A stretch of DNA of 64,000 bases from Pedobacter sp. SYSU D00535 (GTDB taxonomy: Bacteria; Bacteroidota; Bacteroidia; Sphingobacteriales; Sphingobacteriaceae), in contig NZ_JAFEWD010000003.1 of the NCBI RefSeq assembly GCF_017355855.1, positions 310,001 through 374,000 of the forward strand, written 5' to 3'. Shown in pieces: positions 1 through 45,456 of the stretch. Under the pieces are notes generated by a model, which was not told the origin of the DNA, searched no databases, and was given only the letters and a program-made list of their open reading frames with translations. How positions within the stretch are numbered: position 1 is the first letter of the stretch; every line of letters starts with the position of its first letter. Made by a program: the position numbers and the translations under genes.

Positions 1-385
1 GCTCGAATAGTTTCTGATCCACTTTTAGGATTTCAAATGTCTGGAGGCCGTTGGGCATTTCCCACTGTACTCTCGCTCCAACCTTATTACCTAACAGGGC
101 GATCCCGATGGGAGCGAATACCGAGATTTTGTTCTTTTTCATATTTGCCTCGGCGGGCATCACCAGCTGAAAGCGGAACTTCTGTTTCCCTTCTACCGCC
201 ATGATTTCCACTTCCGAGTCGATGCAAACGACGTCGGGGGGAAGTACGCCATCTTTCACAATTTGGGCGTTCTCTAGTTCAGACGCTAACTTATTCTTGT
301 TAAAATCCGATAGCTGACTTTTTGCTAAGTGGGTCTTCAGGATTTCCTCATCCTTTTTTAGAATTACTATTTGCGTAGTTTCCAT
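1..385 (-). CDS. GreA/GreB (Rnk-like) family elongation factor, 3' end cut by window edge
   Basis: Partial gene; the ATG is at 385 and the frame stays open to base 1, giving 128 codons. After a short helical N-terminus (METTQIVILKKDEE) comes the beta-rich Gre/Rnk C-terminal domain, with the segment VCIDSEVEI, the PAEAN stretch, SVFAPIGIALLGNKVG and a following QWEMPNG. Canonical GreA has 'SP.G.ALLGK..GD', so the fold call is good. The N-terminal coiled coil is too short for true GreA, which fits the Rnk-like Bacteroidota subgroup. Such proteins bind RNA polymerase near the secondary channel (known for the family; not shown here). The gene starts 31 bases after the stop of the glutamate-synthase-like gene and may be co-transcribed with it. 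Confidence 0.75.
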   Translation of the reverse strand, partial: METTQIVILKKDEEILKTHLAKSQLSDFNKNKLASELENAQIVKDGVLPPDVVCIDSEVEIMAVEGKQKFRFQLVMPAEANMKKNKISVFAPIGIALLGNKVGARVQWEMPNGLQTFEILKVDQKLFE

Positions 386-416: not shown

Positions 417-1841
417 TTAATTGTTCATTATAGGTGGAAAGCTGTCTTTCATCCGGGCCGATATGAATACCGGCGCCGCAGTGAAAGGGCTCTCCGTTTT
501 TAGAAAATATGGTGGTGGCACATTATCATTTTTCGACTGACTCGCCCGCAGCGTCTTCGAAAGAGCCGTCAATCCCGCCACTATGTTTCTATGATAATTA
601 GCTACGTGCATGCTCCTGGCATAAGGGTCTTCCGAAAACCAGGAGTGAGCCGTTCGGGAGGCATAAGCCATCGGGAGCGTAGAGATGCAGGCAGAAGCGC
701 CAAGTGAGAGGGCTTTTAACACATCCAATTCCGTTACTACCATCCCTGAAAAAAGCAGTGCACTCGGCACCCGGAACTTTTCAAATAACTTTTGGCTGAA
801 CGAAAGAAGTTCAAGCGCTGTCTTTTGGACCGTCGCGCCATTTTTTGAAAAGCTGGTGCTGCAAAGTTCTTCGTCGATGGTGATAAAATCCGGATACAAG
901 CCCGTTTGCCGCATACCAAGCGTTAAGGAGATCAGCGTACTTGTTCCGCGAATAGGTATTCTGATTCCCACGGGCTTTCCTCCCGAGACCTCTCTCAGCT
1001 TTGCAATAAATTGAAGGATTTCCTTTATTTCCCTGAGCGATCTTGTCCCATCCTCCCCGTCTTTCCCAATCCGTTGCTTGAATAGCGCTGGAATGTTCAG
1101 GGATTTAGCTTTATCCGGGCTGGTGATAAGCAACTCAATCATCTTTACATAGGCCCTTGACGAGTTCCTCCGGAATGCCAGCTCTTCGGGAGAACCTAAA
1201 AAGTTCTTCATAGTAACATAATCGAGACTGAACTGCCACAGCAAGTCGCCGCCTCCCCGGATGTGTTCCGGCCGGATGCCGTCTATCCCCGTGGCCAGCC
1301 CAAAACCCTCTACATTGGATGCTTCGCTGAGAGAAAAAATAGTGTCCGCAGAAAAACGGCTAAGACTGGAAACACCAGCATTTAAAACACTCATCAGATA
1401 CGGCTTTTTACATGCTGACGTGCCGATACTCACTTTCAGATTCTGGTCAAACATCAGATGAGTGCCCTTGGTGTCCAGGCCATCCAGCTGTGCTGCAAAG
1501 CTGAGCAGATGTTTCTCTACCGCCTGCTTGGCAGATCTTCTTTTGATGAGGATGCGTTCAGCTCTGGTAAGCGCTCGCAACTTGTTCCCGTTGCTGACGA
1601 TATTTGGGACATAGAACCAGACACGCTCGATTAAGCGGTTTATAAAACGCCGCCCTTTATCTGATCCATCGTTTTTTTGCAACCGGTGGTGAATGAAGAG
1701 CTGAAAAGAGGCCAGTAATATGGCCGCAACAGCAGGTAGGGAGTGCGCGGAAAGTAGCGTGCATGCTACCAGTAGACAATTGATCAGAAAAAGGGAAATA
1801 AGGCCAAGCCCCAGCCGGGACTGACATCGCAATTTTTTCAT
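417..1841 (-). CDS. Diverged FMN-binding glutamate-synthase-like membrane protein
   Basis: 474 residues. Two hydrophobic segments lie in about residues 10-55, followed by a TIM-barrel-like region that resembles the glutamate synthase central/FMN domain: a 'KPYLMSVLNAGVSSLS' stretch, EGFGLATG, GGGDLLWQ, VSGGKPVGIRIPI, ALSLGASACIS and the family's C-terminal 'VANYHRN' motif. Family members normally carry a GA(D/E)GGTGA loop and a Cys cluster after the barrel. Here the loop position reads DEELCSTSF and no CxxCP-like cluster is seen. I infer a paralog that may have lost flavin or Fe-S chemistry. The protein is probably anchored in the inner membrane. Upstream lie the mini-ORF/hairpin units; downstream is a Gre-like gene. 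The start at 1841 (MKKLRC) lies directly after the hairpin leader. Confidence 0.7.
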   Translation of the reverse strand: MKKLRCQSRLGLGLISLFLINCLLVACTLLSAHSLPAVAAILLASFQLFIHHRLQKNDGSDKGRRFINRLIERVWFYVPNIVSNGNKLRALTRAERILIKRRSAKQAVEKHLLSFAAQLDGLDTKGTHLMFDQNLKVSIGTSACKKPYLMSVLNAGVSSLSRFSADTIFSLSEASNVEGFGLATGIDGIRPEHIRGGGDLLWQFSLDYVTMKNFLGSPEELAFRRNSSRAYVKMIELLITSPDKAKSLNIPALFKQRIGKDGEDGTRSLREIKEILQFIAKLREVSGGKPVGIRIPIRGTSTLISLTLGMRQTGLYPDFITIDEELCSTSFSKNGATVQKTALELLSFSQKLFEKFRVPSALLFSGMVVTELDVLKALSLGASACISTLPMAYASRTAHSWFSEDPYARSMHVANYHRNIVAGLTALSKTLRASQSKNDNVPPPYFLKTESPFTAAPVFISARMKDSFPPIMNN

Positions 1842-1847
1842 GAAACT

Positions 1848-2003
1848 TTATTAAGACAGTTAAAAACGGGAAGTTTTTCTACTGGCCCCAATGCCGATTG
1901 TCGGATTGGGGCTTACTTGATAAAGTCTTTGCTCGCTGTACGAAAAGAATAACCGAAATGGGTGTAAGTCGATACAAGATGGTAATAAACGCTCAACAAC
2001 GCC
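1848..2003. repeat. Repeat unit 1 (hairpin plus mini-ORF 3' end)
   Basis: Starts with ATTAAGACAGT and A-rich sequence, then the hairpin, then TAAAGTCTTT, and about 75 bases on an ACAACGCC block. The same order recurs at 2080-2223. The outer AAGAC and GTCTT words are mutually complementary, so each unit can close as a larger stem. Confidence 0.55.
1887..1912. terminator. Hairpin of repeat unit 1
   Basis: GCCCCAAT and ATTGGGGC pair around an inner CCGA/TCGG stem with one bulged G. On the minus strand it follows the stop of the 52-residue ORF directly, but no immediate T-run follows, so attenuation or mRNA protection is as likely as termination. Confidence 0.5.
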
Positions 2004-2071
2004 CTCATCACAGTTTTAACTGCAATCTCAAGGAGGCGGAGTAAAAATTTAGCATCTTGAAGGAACTTCAT
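1913..2071 (-). CDS. Unannotated 52-residue basic, partly amphipathic mini-protein
   Basis: ATG at 2071, stop at 1913. The product begins MKFLQDAKFLLRLLEIAVKT and ends SKDFIK. The N-terminal half is rich in Leu, Val and Lys and could form an amphipathic helix; the C-terminal half is Tyr/Ser/Thr rich. A related but decayed sequence lies at 2150-2360, ending in the alternative frame with SSKDFIN, and both copies are followed on the minus strand by a strong hairpin at the same distance. That conservation of the 3' end of the ORF is the main support for its being real. It lies upstream of the glutamate-synthase-like gene on the same strand. Function unknown; it could instead be a structured leader RNA without translation. 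Confidence 0.4.
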   Translation of the reverse strand: MKFLQDAKFLLRLLEIAVKTVMRALLSVYYHLVSTYTHFGYSFRTASKDFIK

Positions 2072-2079
2072 AAAAAATA

Positions 2080-2223
2080 ATTAAGACAGTAAAAAATGGA
2101 TACTTAATCACTGCTCCCCAGCGTCATGAAGACACGCTGGGGCTTAATTAATAAAGTCTTTACTACTTTTTAAGAAAGCGTAGGAGAGATGAGAAATTGA
2201 AATAATTGCACGACAACGCCGGG
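2080..2223. repeat. Repeat unit 2, diverged copy of the 1848-2003 unit
   Basis: ATTAAGACAGT, an A-run, a hairpin with CCCCAGCGT/ACGCTGGGG arms (2115-2142), TAATAAAGTCTTT, then CGACAACGCC. Flanks align with unit 1, while the hairpin stem bases differ yet stay paired, which is the pattern expected when structure is conserved rather than sequence. Confidence 0.55.
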
Positions 2224-2360
2224 CCTCGATAGAGGTGCTTTGACAGAAGCGATAGGAGTGCAATGGCTGTTTCACAAATACAAATGTCTAACTTTAATTG
2301 ACTTACGCAAGTGCAAAAGCTTTTCAGTCGTAGTTTGACGAGATTGTTACATGTCGTCAA
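2150..2360 (-). pseudogene. Possible decayed copy of the 52-residue mini-ORF
   Basis: A 65-codon frame (2360 to 2163) reads through here and ends RFLKK; one base over, the sequence ends SSKDFIN with a stop placed before the hairpin just as in the intact copy. The ALSCNYFNF segment aligns loosely with ALLSVYYHL of the intact copy. I read it as a frameshifted or strongly diverged relative. Weak evidence. Confidence 0.25.
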
Positions 2361-2450: not shown

Positions 2451-3878
2451 TCAGACTTTGGCCCTTTTCCAGCTGCCGCGGCTAAAAAGCCATACGGTAA
2501 AGATGCCTACGGAAGTCTCCGATACAAAAACTCCCCAGAAAACTCCTGTCTGCTCGAGGTCCAGTTGAATTGCGAGGAAATAGGACAAGGGAATCTGTAT
2601 CAGCCAGAAAAAAACAAGGTTGATCAGGGTTGGAGTCCTGGTATCTCCTGAACCGTTAAAAGCCGAGGTAGAGACCATCCACCAGCCGTATACAAAGTAG
2701 GAGAAGGAAAGGATGCGCAGCCACTCGGCACCTACAGCTATCACCCTTTCATCCTGTGTAAAAATTTGCATGAGTGCGCGGTTGAAGAAGAAATAGACGA
2801 TAGAGACGCAGACCAGGAAGATCATGTTGTAAAAGCCGGTCTTCCAAACCGCAGACTCGGCCCGGTCCGGGTTGCCGGCGCCCAGGTTCTGGCCTACCAG
2901 TGTTGCTGCCGCGTTAGACATTCCCCAGGCAGGCATCATCGTAAACATCATGATACGCATAGCGATGGTAGATCCGGCGACAGCCTCGCTACCTACTTCT
3001 GCCAGGATGCGCATTAAAAAGATCCAGGAAGTCATGGCAATTACCATTTGCCCGATGCCTCCCAAGGACGTCCGGAAGATGCCGGCCATGATCTTGAAGT
3101 GCCAGCGTACCTGAGACAGCTTGATCCCGATATGTTTTCCTCCCTTAAAAAGGAGCCACAGCTGAGTGAGCACACCTATTCCCCGGCCTAAAGTGGTGGC
3201 GATTGCCGCTCCTTCAATACCCAGCGAAGGAAGAGGTCCCCAGCCAAAAATAAGAAGGGGGCAAAGGATGATATTCAATCCGTTGGAGATCCATAAGATC
3301 CGCATGGCAATAGCGGCGTCTCCGGCCCCCCGAAAAATAGCGTTGATGACAAACAGGAGAACGATAACCACGTTCCCACCCAGCATCCACCGGGTGTAGC
3401 GGTAGCCATGGTCTATAGACCACTGGTCAGCGCCCATTAAGCTAAGAAGCTCTTTCGCGTAGAAAATACCAGCCAGGGCGAAAGGGATAGAAGCGAGCAG
3501 GCCGAGAAAGATCGACTGGATGGCCGACACGGCAGCATCTTCCCTGTTTTTTTCACCCACTCTTCGGGCAATGGTGGCAGTAATGGCCATCGATAATCCC
3601 ATCGCAATAGAGTACAGCAGGAATAAATAGGTTTCCGTCAGTCCTACCGTTGCCACCGCAGAAGCGCCGAGCCGGCTCACAAAATAGATATCTACCACGG
3701 CAAAGGTAGATTCCATTACCAGCTCCAGTATCATAGGTACTGCCAGTAGAAAGATGGCTTTTTTCAGGCGGATTTGCGTATAGTCGGCTTCTGTGCCCAT
3801 AATGACATCCTTCAGCTCCTTCCAGATGGAGGTGCGGGGAGCTACGGCCAGGTCTTGAGGTATTTGTGCTTCTTTCAT
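2451..3878 (-). CDS. MATE family efflux transporter
   Basis: 475 residues from the ATG at 3878 (MKEAQIPQ); an in-frame ATG at 3929 would add 17 residues of uncharacteristic sequence. About 12 hydrophobic segments form two similar halves. Recognisable family features are the first-helix region with P-M-x-x-E (LAVPMILELVMEST), FVSRLGASAVATVGL early, and a second-half region with GQNLGAGNPDRAE. MATE proteins export cationic drugs and metabolites from the cytoplasm using Na+ or H+ gradients. The closest subfamily by eye is the MatE/NorM-DinF-like group common in Bacteroidota. Substrate is not predictable. It stands alone, with no adjacent regulator; the next gene upstream is on the other strand. 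Confidence 0.92.
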   Translation of the reverse strand: MKEAQIPQDLAVAPRTSIWKELKDVIMGTEADYTQIRLKKAIFLLAVPMILELVMESTFAVVDIYFVSRLGASAVATVGLTETYLFLLYSIAMGLSMAITATIARRVGEKNREDAAVSAIQSIFLGLLASIPFALAGIFYAKELLSLMGADQWSIDHGYRYTRWMLGGNVVIVLLFVINAIFRGAGDAAIAMRILWISNGLNIILCPLLIFGWGPLPSLGIEGAAIATTLGRGIGVLTQLWLLFKGGKHIGIKLSQVRWHFKIMAGIFRTSLGGIGQMVIAMTSWIFLMRILAEVGSEAVAGSTIAMRIMMFTMMPAWGMSNAAATLVGQNLGAGNPDRAESAVWKTGFYNMIFLVCVSIVYFFFNRALMQIFTQDERVIAVGAEWLRILSFSYFVYGWWMVSTSAFNGSGDTRTPTLINLVFFWLIQIPLSYFLAIQLDLEQTGVFWGVFVSETSVGIFTVWLFSRGSWKRAKV

Positions 3879-4178
3879 TGGTTTTTCGTTTGAAGGATTA
3901 GTTGGCAAATGGTACAAGCTGCCATGCAAAAATACCGATGTCCCCGCAGTAGGAGGGGACGGTTTCCGACAAGTTAACGGGGGATTTGCGTCATTCCCTG
4001 CGAATCACGTTTAGACGCGGATCTGCTCGAATAGAAGGGGTATTTTTAGTTCAGTGAATAAAACACGCTGATTATCAATAAATAATGTGTACATTTAAGA
4101 AATTCCAAACAGCCCTCCACTTAGGCATTGCCATTTTCTCCGGTAGTATTTAAGCGCCGCTTTAATCGTACAAATAGA
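3879..4178. other. Divergent intergenic region
   Basis: Between MATE and the orphan trio. It contains a short GC hairpin (CCCCGCAGTAGGAGGGG area, 3941-3958) and AT-rich sequence before 4179. No clear promoter match or gene found. Confidence 0.4.

Positions 4179-45363: not shown

Positions 45364-45456
<93 letters not shown>

Follow-up and report, generated by a model that had tools for sequence, protein, structure and literature searches.

Genes of the GreA/Rnk family are known in other phyla to be controlled by attenuation. In the cited section of PMC2965389 they stand seventh in the ranking of gene families for which transcription attenuators are predicted in Proteobacteria, bacilli and Clostridia, and the leader of Escherichia coli greA yields a small RNA, GraL, which the cited part of PMC6829880 describes as needed in cis for autoregulation. 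These greA and rnk leaders (RF01769, RF01771; Potrykus 2010, Naville and Gautheret 2010) are terminator/antiterminator RNAs, and the cited section of PMC2965389 mentions no conserved leader peptide in them. Translational attenuators of the erm type (ErmC, ErmBL) depend on a ribosome in the leader ORF that keeps the next start unhidden; tandem leaders are reported for ermB in the part of PMC8274638 cited here. TnaC is a stop-codon arrest peptide, in which conservation is concentrated at the C-terminus beside the stop codon. The type I toxin-antitoxin repeats ldr and ibs/sib are tandem intergenic units of a few hundred bases that contain a small ORF. Among the Bacteroidota, the cited part of a transcriptome study of Flavobacterium psychrophilum (PMC9723704) gives clues to leader peptides upstream of amino-acid biosynthesis operons.

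We have studied a pair of repeated units in a stretch of 64,000 nucleotides (the window) that sits in the 4.9 Mb draft genome of Pedobacter sp. SYSU D00535. Like the greA and rnk leaders, they form the 5′ leader of a GreA/Rnk-family gene with a conserved structure and probable attenuation, but they differ in having a conserved peptide whose stop codon is abutted by a hairpin. We consider it reasonably probable, on comparative grounds, that two translated leader ORFs stand in tandem here at the head of a Gre-family operon, each acting in cis as an attenuator. The leader-peptide attenuator would be a new family of a kind already known, and the combination of peptide and hairpin is probably an undescribed translation-controlled switch. 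A literature search, with subscription journals mostly outside its coverage, found no description of a SKDFI leader.

Two intact leader ORFs in the window

The original prediction had proposed two repeated units with strong hairpins, and both proposals are borne out at positions 1837-2300. Two direct-repeat blocks recur at an offset of 230-231 nt (1837-1869 with 2067-2099 at 82% identity, and 1907-1933 with 2138-2164 at 89%), and folding of the minus strand gives z about −4.3 to −5.2. The functional strand of the units is the minus strand, on which each consists of the 3′ end of a small ORF, its stop codon, a hairpin 0-1 nt further on, some 70 nt and then the next start codon (Table 1). Read on this strand, the plus-strand word ATTAAGACAGT is the segment ACTGTCTTAAT that precedes the next start codon, and TAAAGTCTTT is the SKDF codons, AAAGACTTTA. 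The ACAACGCC words (about 1996 and 2212), put forward earlier as a common block, are out of register in the unit alignment.

The unit ORFs end in SKDFI[KN]-stop, with the preceding residue given as [AS] or [ST]. The 52-codon minus-strand ORF described earlier is present, and the second copy, which had been called out of frame, in fact ends with SSKDFIN-stop in frame in an ORF of its own, so that both copies in the window are intact. The start codon of this second ORF, leader B, is uncertain, there being no in-frame ATG. The hairpin stems had been said to differ completely; this is true of the inner pairs, whereas the outer CCCC/GGGG pairs are common to both.

Table 1. Features of the leader region and its downstream genes in the window.
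Feature	Position	Strand	Basis
Leader ORF B, 43 codons from GTG, end MKQPLHSYRFCQSTSIEARRCRAIISISHLSYAFLKSSKDFIN-stop	2144..2275	−	ORF list; R1 match 2115-2197; in conserved set
Leader B conserved C-terminal codons SKDFIN	2147..2164	−	Codon-position entropies, 50 elements
Leader B post-stop hairpin GCCCCAGCGT..ACGCTGGGG	2116..2143	−	Folds; covariation
Segment before leader A start codon, partly complementary to leader B last codons (putative stem P1)	2072..2093	−	Duplex
Leader ORF A, 52 codons, end MKFLQDAKFLLRLLEIAVKTVMRALLSVYYHLVSTYTHFGYSFRTASKDFIK-stop	1913..2071	−	ORF list; R1 match 1885-1966
Leader A conserved C-terminal codons SKDFIK	1916..1933	−	Codon-position entropies, 50 elements
Leader A post-stop hairpin GCCCCAATCCG..CGGCATTGGGGC	1885..1912	−	Folds; covariation
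Segment before glutamate-synthase-like start codon, complementary to leader A last codons (putative P1)	1842..1863	−	Three-way fold; duplex test
Gene of 474 codons, glutamate-synthase-like (FMN-binding type), separating the leaders from the Gre-like gene	417..1841	−	Pfam, gene order
GreA/GreB C-domain (Rnk-like) gene, 3′ end past window edge	2..385	−	Pfam PF01272, 74.6 bits

The order of leaders, glutamate-synthase-like gene and Gre-like gene is common to several relatives. The product of the former gene matches Pfam Glu_synthase at 25.8 bits, weak yet above the cut-off, and that of the latter scores 94.3 bits with the NCBIfam nucleoside diphosphate kinase regulator, under the cut-off of 109. 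The window's Gre gene is immediately followed, outside the window, by another Gre-domain gene (L302, G000:C13:309000-312600), and such tandem Gre genes are also seen in L137, L134, L138, L227 and L238. Elsewhere on the minus strand are an ordinary MATE-family efflux gene upstream of the leaders (2451-3929) and an ordinary tRNA gene found with Rfam (45369-45453).

Leader A has a relative in another genome (G002) with 66% identity over 41 aa. The two small ORFs of the window found no match in Pfam or NCBIfam scans, and Rfam gave no relevant match at gathering or permissive thresholds; the best scores in the window's own genome for greA (RF01769, 22.2 bits against a cut-off of 60) and rnk_leader (RF01771, 21.5 bits against 50) lie on other contigs. 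The small-ORF family is without an entry in Pfam, NCBIfam or Rfam among those searched.

Distribution of the element

DNA searches of relatives revealed a matching region that holds between one and three units and again adjoins the glutamate-synthase-like gene. A tblastn-style protein search was by itself too weak to collect relatives, but a model of coding sequence plus hairpin succeeded. This covariance model, R1, comprises the last 17 codons and the hairpin. Run on 201 genomes of the window's family, it matched 52 of them at E 0.1 or lower, for the most part strongly, and these span 14 of 25 genera. Conservation in near relatives, the lack of which was to have counted against the original prediction, is found. 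At the level of the class, R1 returned mostly chance matches. A broader model, R2, located four more loci with a Gre gene downstream beyond the window's family (G337, G415, G371, G342), in three other families. A pattern search of genome contigs with TTAAGACAGTNAAAAA was discarded, the nine loci inspected being chance matches.

The element is linked to Gre-like genes

Of 58 elements, 54 are followed on their own strand by a gene for a GreA/GreB C-domain protein, mostly Rnk-like and of about 130 aa. The glutamate-synthase-like gene, before which the feature was first placed, is indeed downstream here, but it occurs only at a subset of loci and the constant partner is the Gre-like gene. The distance from element to Gre gene is 84-471 nt at 39 of the linked elements, mostly within 84-335 nt, and 1.3-2.0 kb at the remainder, where a gltB-like gene intervenes. 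Two unlinked elements (L135 and L249) have only a glutamate-synthase-like gene downstream, and L255, unlinked and lacking SKDFI, is probably a false match. In L232 (G120:C18:57500-63500) a SKDFI leader stands upstream of a different, non-Gre gene, reading MKLICPEHGGTIEIVG... The canonical greA, of which each of 41 genomes has one as judged by open-frame length, is never near an element, and about 14 Rnk-like loci are (manual count).

In L299 (G025:C25:7800-9800) a Gre-like gene is directly preceded by a reading frame that looks like a complete FMN-type glutamate synthase, so this neighbourhood is not limited to loci of the window type. Inspection by eye of Rnk-like genes that lack the SKDFI element (L294-L297, L300) showed other small ORFs just upstream. 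Three types occur in this set: ..TAFN.FTPDL-stop with a CCCCGG/CCGGGG hairpin, MENAFQYTLKG..FSCPKEFSI-stop with an ACCCGGG hairpin, and MNQ..FIK[FY]LI[VL]-stop. This suggests that there are several classes of leader upstream of Gre-like genes. A related type, with SNKAFIS, NNKAF[IV] or similar before the hairpin, is seen in L253, L260, L256, L257, L312, L317 and L326; it is the second unit of a tandem pair in the first four of these, and L312 is without a Gre gene in the stretch examined.

The leader ORFs are conserved coding sequences

Across 50 anchored elements the first and second positions of the last codons are near-invariant, while the third positions vary synonymously: lysine is AAA in 25 and AAG in 25, serine AGT in 23 and AGC in 19, and phenylalanine at codon −5 TTT in 20 and TTC in 20. 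Because the K-D-F anchor was imposed by the search itself, the weight for coding rests on the unanchored codons (F −5, S −1, Y/D −7, G −8). The frame is open for at least 40 codons upstream in 43 of 47 elements; for the other frames the figures are 7 and 2. An ATG lies 40-48 codons upstream in 35 of 47, compared with none in either other frame. Most leader ORFs are near 47-49 codons in length. Values of pN/pS are mostly 0.2-0.5, the exception being the L235-L237 group at 0.8-0.9. Most of the conservation falls within roughly the last 15 codons, with some further upstream, and the N-termini diverge widely.

A pattern built on the peptide, with no hairpin, found 51 sites in the 201 genomes, where the reversed control gave 20; R1 matches coincide with 37 of the 51 (manual count). 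Four sites outside this overlap were inspected; one, L359, proved to be a true member that the strong threshold had missed, and no Gre gene accompanies the remaining three. We also considered that the stop codon might be read through into the following gene, but set this aside after inspecting the frames in two loci.

Judged by these comparisons, the leaders are conserved as coding sequences, and their C-termini are conserved too. Codon signature, frame, start codon and position are those of a leader peptide, i.e., a conserved translated short ORF upstream of a regulated gene, and with the Gre linkage they give good support to the leader peptide among the readings offered originally. A small membrane peptide gains nothing from the data, and the codon-level signature excludes a duplicated regulatory RNA alone.

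A hairpin abuts the stop codon

The stem GCCCC..GGGGC follows right after the leader stop codon. Its first paired base lies 0-1 nt past the stop in 47 of 47 elements, which were collected with a model that includes a hairpin there; an earlier regular expression based on the peptide, in which the hairpin was not required, gave 11 sites in the loci scanned, all followed by a GCCC hairpin arm. In an alignment fitted to the model, 94.8% of cells are paired, with 25 double-change cells compared with 4.0 in shuffles, and slid controls are 73% paired or less. By this measure the post-stop hairpin covaries.

Could the conserved product instead be a small protein that acts in trans, for example by binding the Gre-like protein or RNA polymerase, the hairpin merely protecting or ending the message? 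The conserved length, the purifying selection along the whole ORF and the constant Gre-like neighbourhood would suit such a protein, and conservation beyond the last 15 codons is also expected of a trans peptide. However, conservation is strongest at the C-terminal end, the hairpin starts within a nucleotide of the stop codon, and the two or three diverged tandem copies with fixed stop-to-start spacing at gltB-type loci point to a role in cis. We regard this alternative as unlikely.

Transcription attenuation proper is less likely again. Here a terminator close to the hairpin would cut the leader transcript short, much like that of E. coli greA (GraL), and read-through would hinge on whether the leader is translated. 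A U/T tract after the stem is missing in nearly all copies, and the post-stop hairpin is for this reason not itself an intrinsic terminator; moreover, the conserved part yielded no common antiterminator, and the fixed spacing at gltB-type loci is a further argument against this mechanism. In its favor, L140 and L240 do have a T run just past the stem, terminator-like sites occur within 200 nt in 23 of 47 elements where 10 are expected, only about twice expectation, and there is the precedent of the predicted greA/rnk attenuators (seventh-ranked in the cited section of PMC2965389).

A structured RNA or duplicated repeat with an incidental ORF (a regulatory RNA, a riboswitch or a type I toxin-antitoxin of the ldr/sib kind) has the strong hairpin, the tandem duplication, shared with ldr and ibs/sib, and the good folding of the plus strand to recommend it, but we rejected the pure RNA and toxin-antitoxin readings on the codon-position signature, the conserved minus-strand reading frame and the linkage of these leaders to Gre operons, and with no Rfam match, no evidence of an antisense RNA or gene, and a polar conserved C-terminus, SKDFI[KN], in place of hydrophobic toxin-like conservation, it is very improbable.

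A proposed cis-acting attenuator governed by leader translation

The reading that we prefer remains a cis-acting attenuator, which may work on transcription or on translation. In 16 leaders at gltB-type loci, among them both leaders of the window, the next start lies at a fixed 66-74 nt from the stop codon. A potential stem P1, between the last codons of the leader and the segment before the next start, was examined at these gltB-type loci. Own pairing beats cross pairing there, with 4 of 5000 permutations, uncorrected for base composition or kinship. In the window, the duplex of the end of leader B with the segment before leader A has −13.3 kcal/mol and is the best of 16 partners; the P1 copy before the glutamate-synthase-like gene, taken alone, ranks fifth of 16. 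The register of P1 shifts between loci, and RNAalifold supports the post-stop hairpin but not P1. The evidence for a putative P1 stem across the next start is moderate.

While a ribosome reads SKDFI and halts at the stop, it would occupy the 5′ arm of the post-stop hairpin; at gltB-type loci it would also mask the leader codons that would otherwise pair with the pre-start segment in P1. The next start would then be open during leader translation and shut without it. In the window this predicts a chain in which leader B gives access to leader A, and leader A in turn to the glutamate-synthase-like gene; the Gre-like gene comes next in line. From the conservation of the C-terminal residues, the sensing step may be a pause near the stop codon, induced by the nascent chain or the hairpin. 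Control of the module by the ribosome, comprising leader translation and a structure that depends on it, is what we infer from these comparisons.

The start of transcription may be close to some leaders. A promoter −7 box, TAnnTTTG, ends 4-8 nt before the start codon in 8 of 47 leaders, compared with 0.8% of control ATGs; it matches the −7 element of Bacteroidota given in the cited part of PMC6847099. Given this position, those eight leaders are probably nearly leaderless and first on their transcript. According to the same part of that source, initiation in Bacteroidota is tuned by mRNA structure and not by Shine-Dalgarno pairing, so that hiding the AT-rich pre-start segment would matter.

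The proposal resembles the erm-type attenuators in that a ribosome in the leader ORF would keep the next start unhidden. It differs in that there is no drug or resistance gene, that, in a phylum without Shine-Dalgarno sequences, what is hidden would be the AT-rich stretch before the start, and that both pairing and stalling are predicted here. The C-terminal conservation beside the stop codon recalls TnaC, a likeness of position alone. We would go further only tentatively, to a possible but doubtful stop-codon arrest-peptide family dedicated to Gre/Rnk-type secondary-channel factors of RNA polymerase, and wired here as a cascade of two leaders (three in a relative) that open each other in turn. 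If that were so, the state of translation would directly set the level of a transcription-elongation factor. If the attenuator reading itself is true, a widespread leader peptide with a stop-codon hairpin would link the behavior of the ribosome to the control of RNA-polymerase elongation in a family of Bacteroidota.
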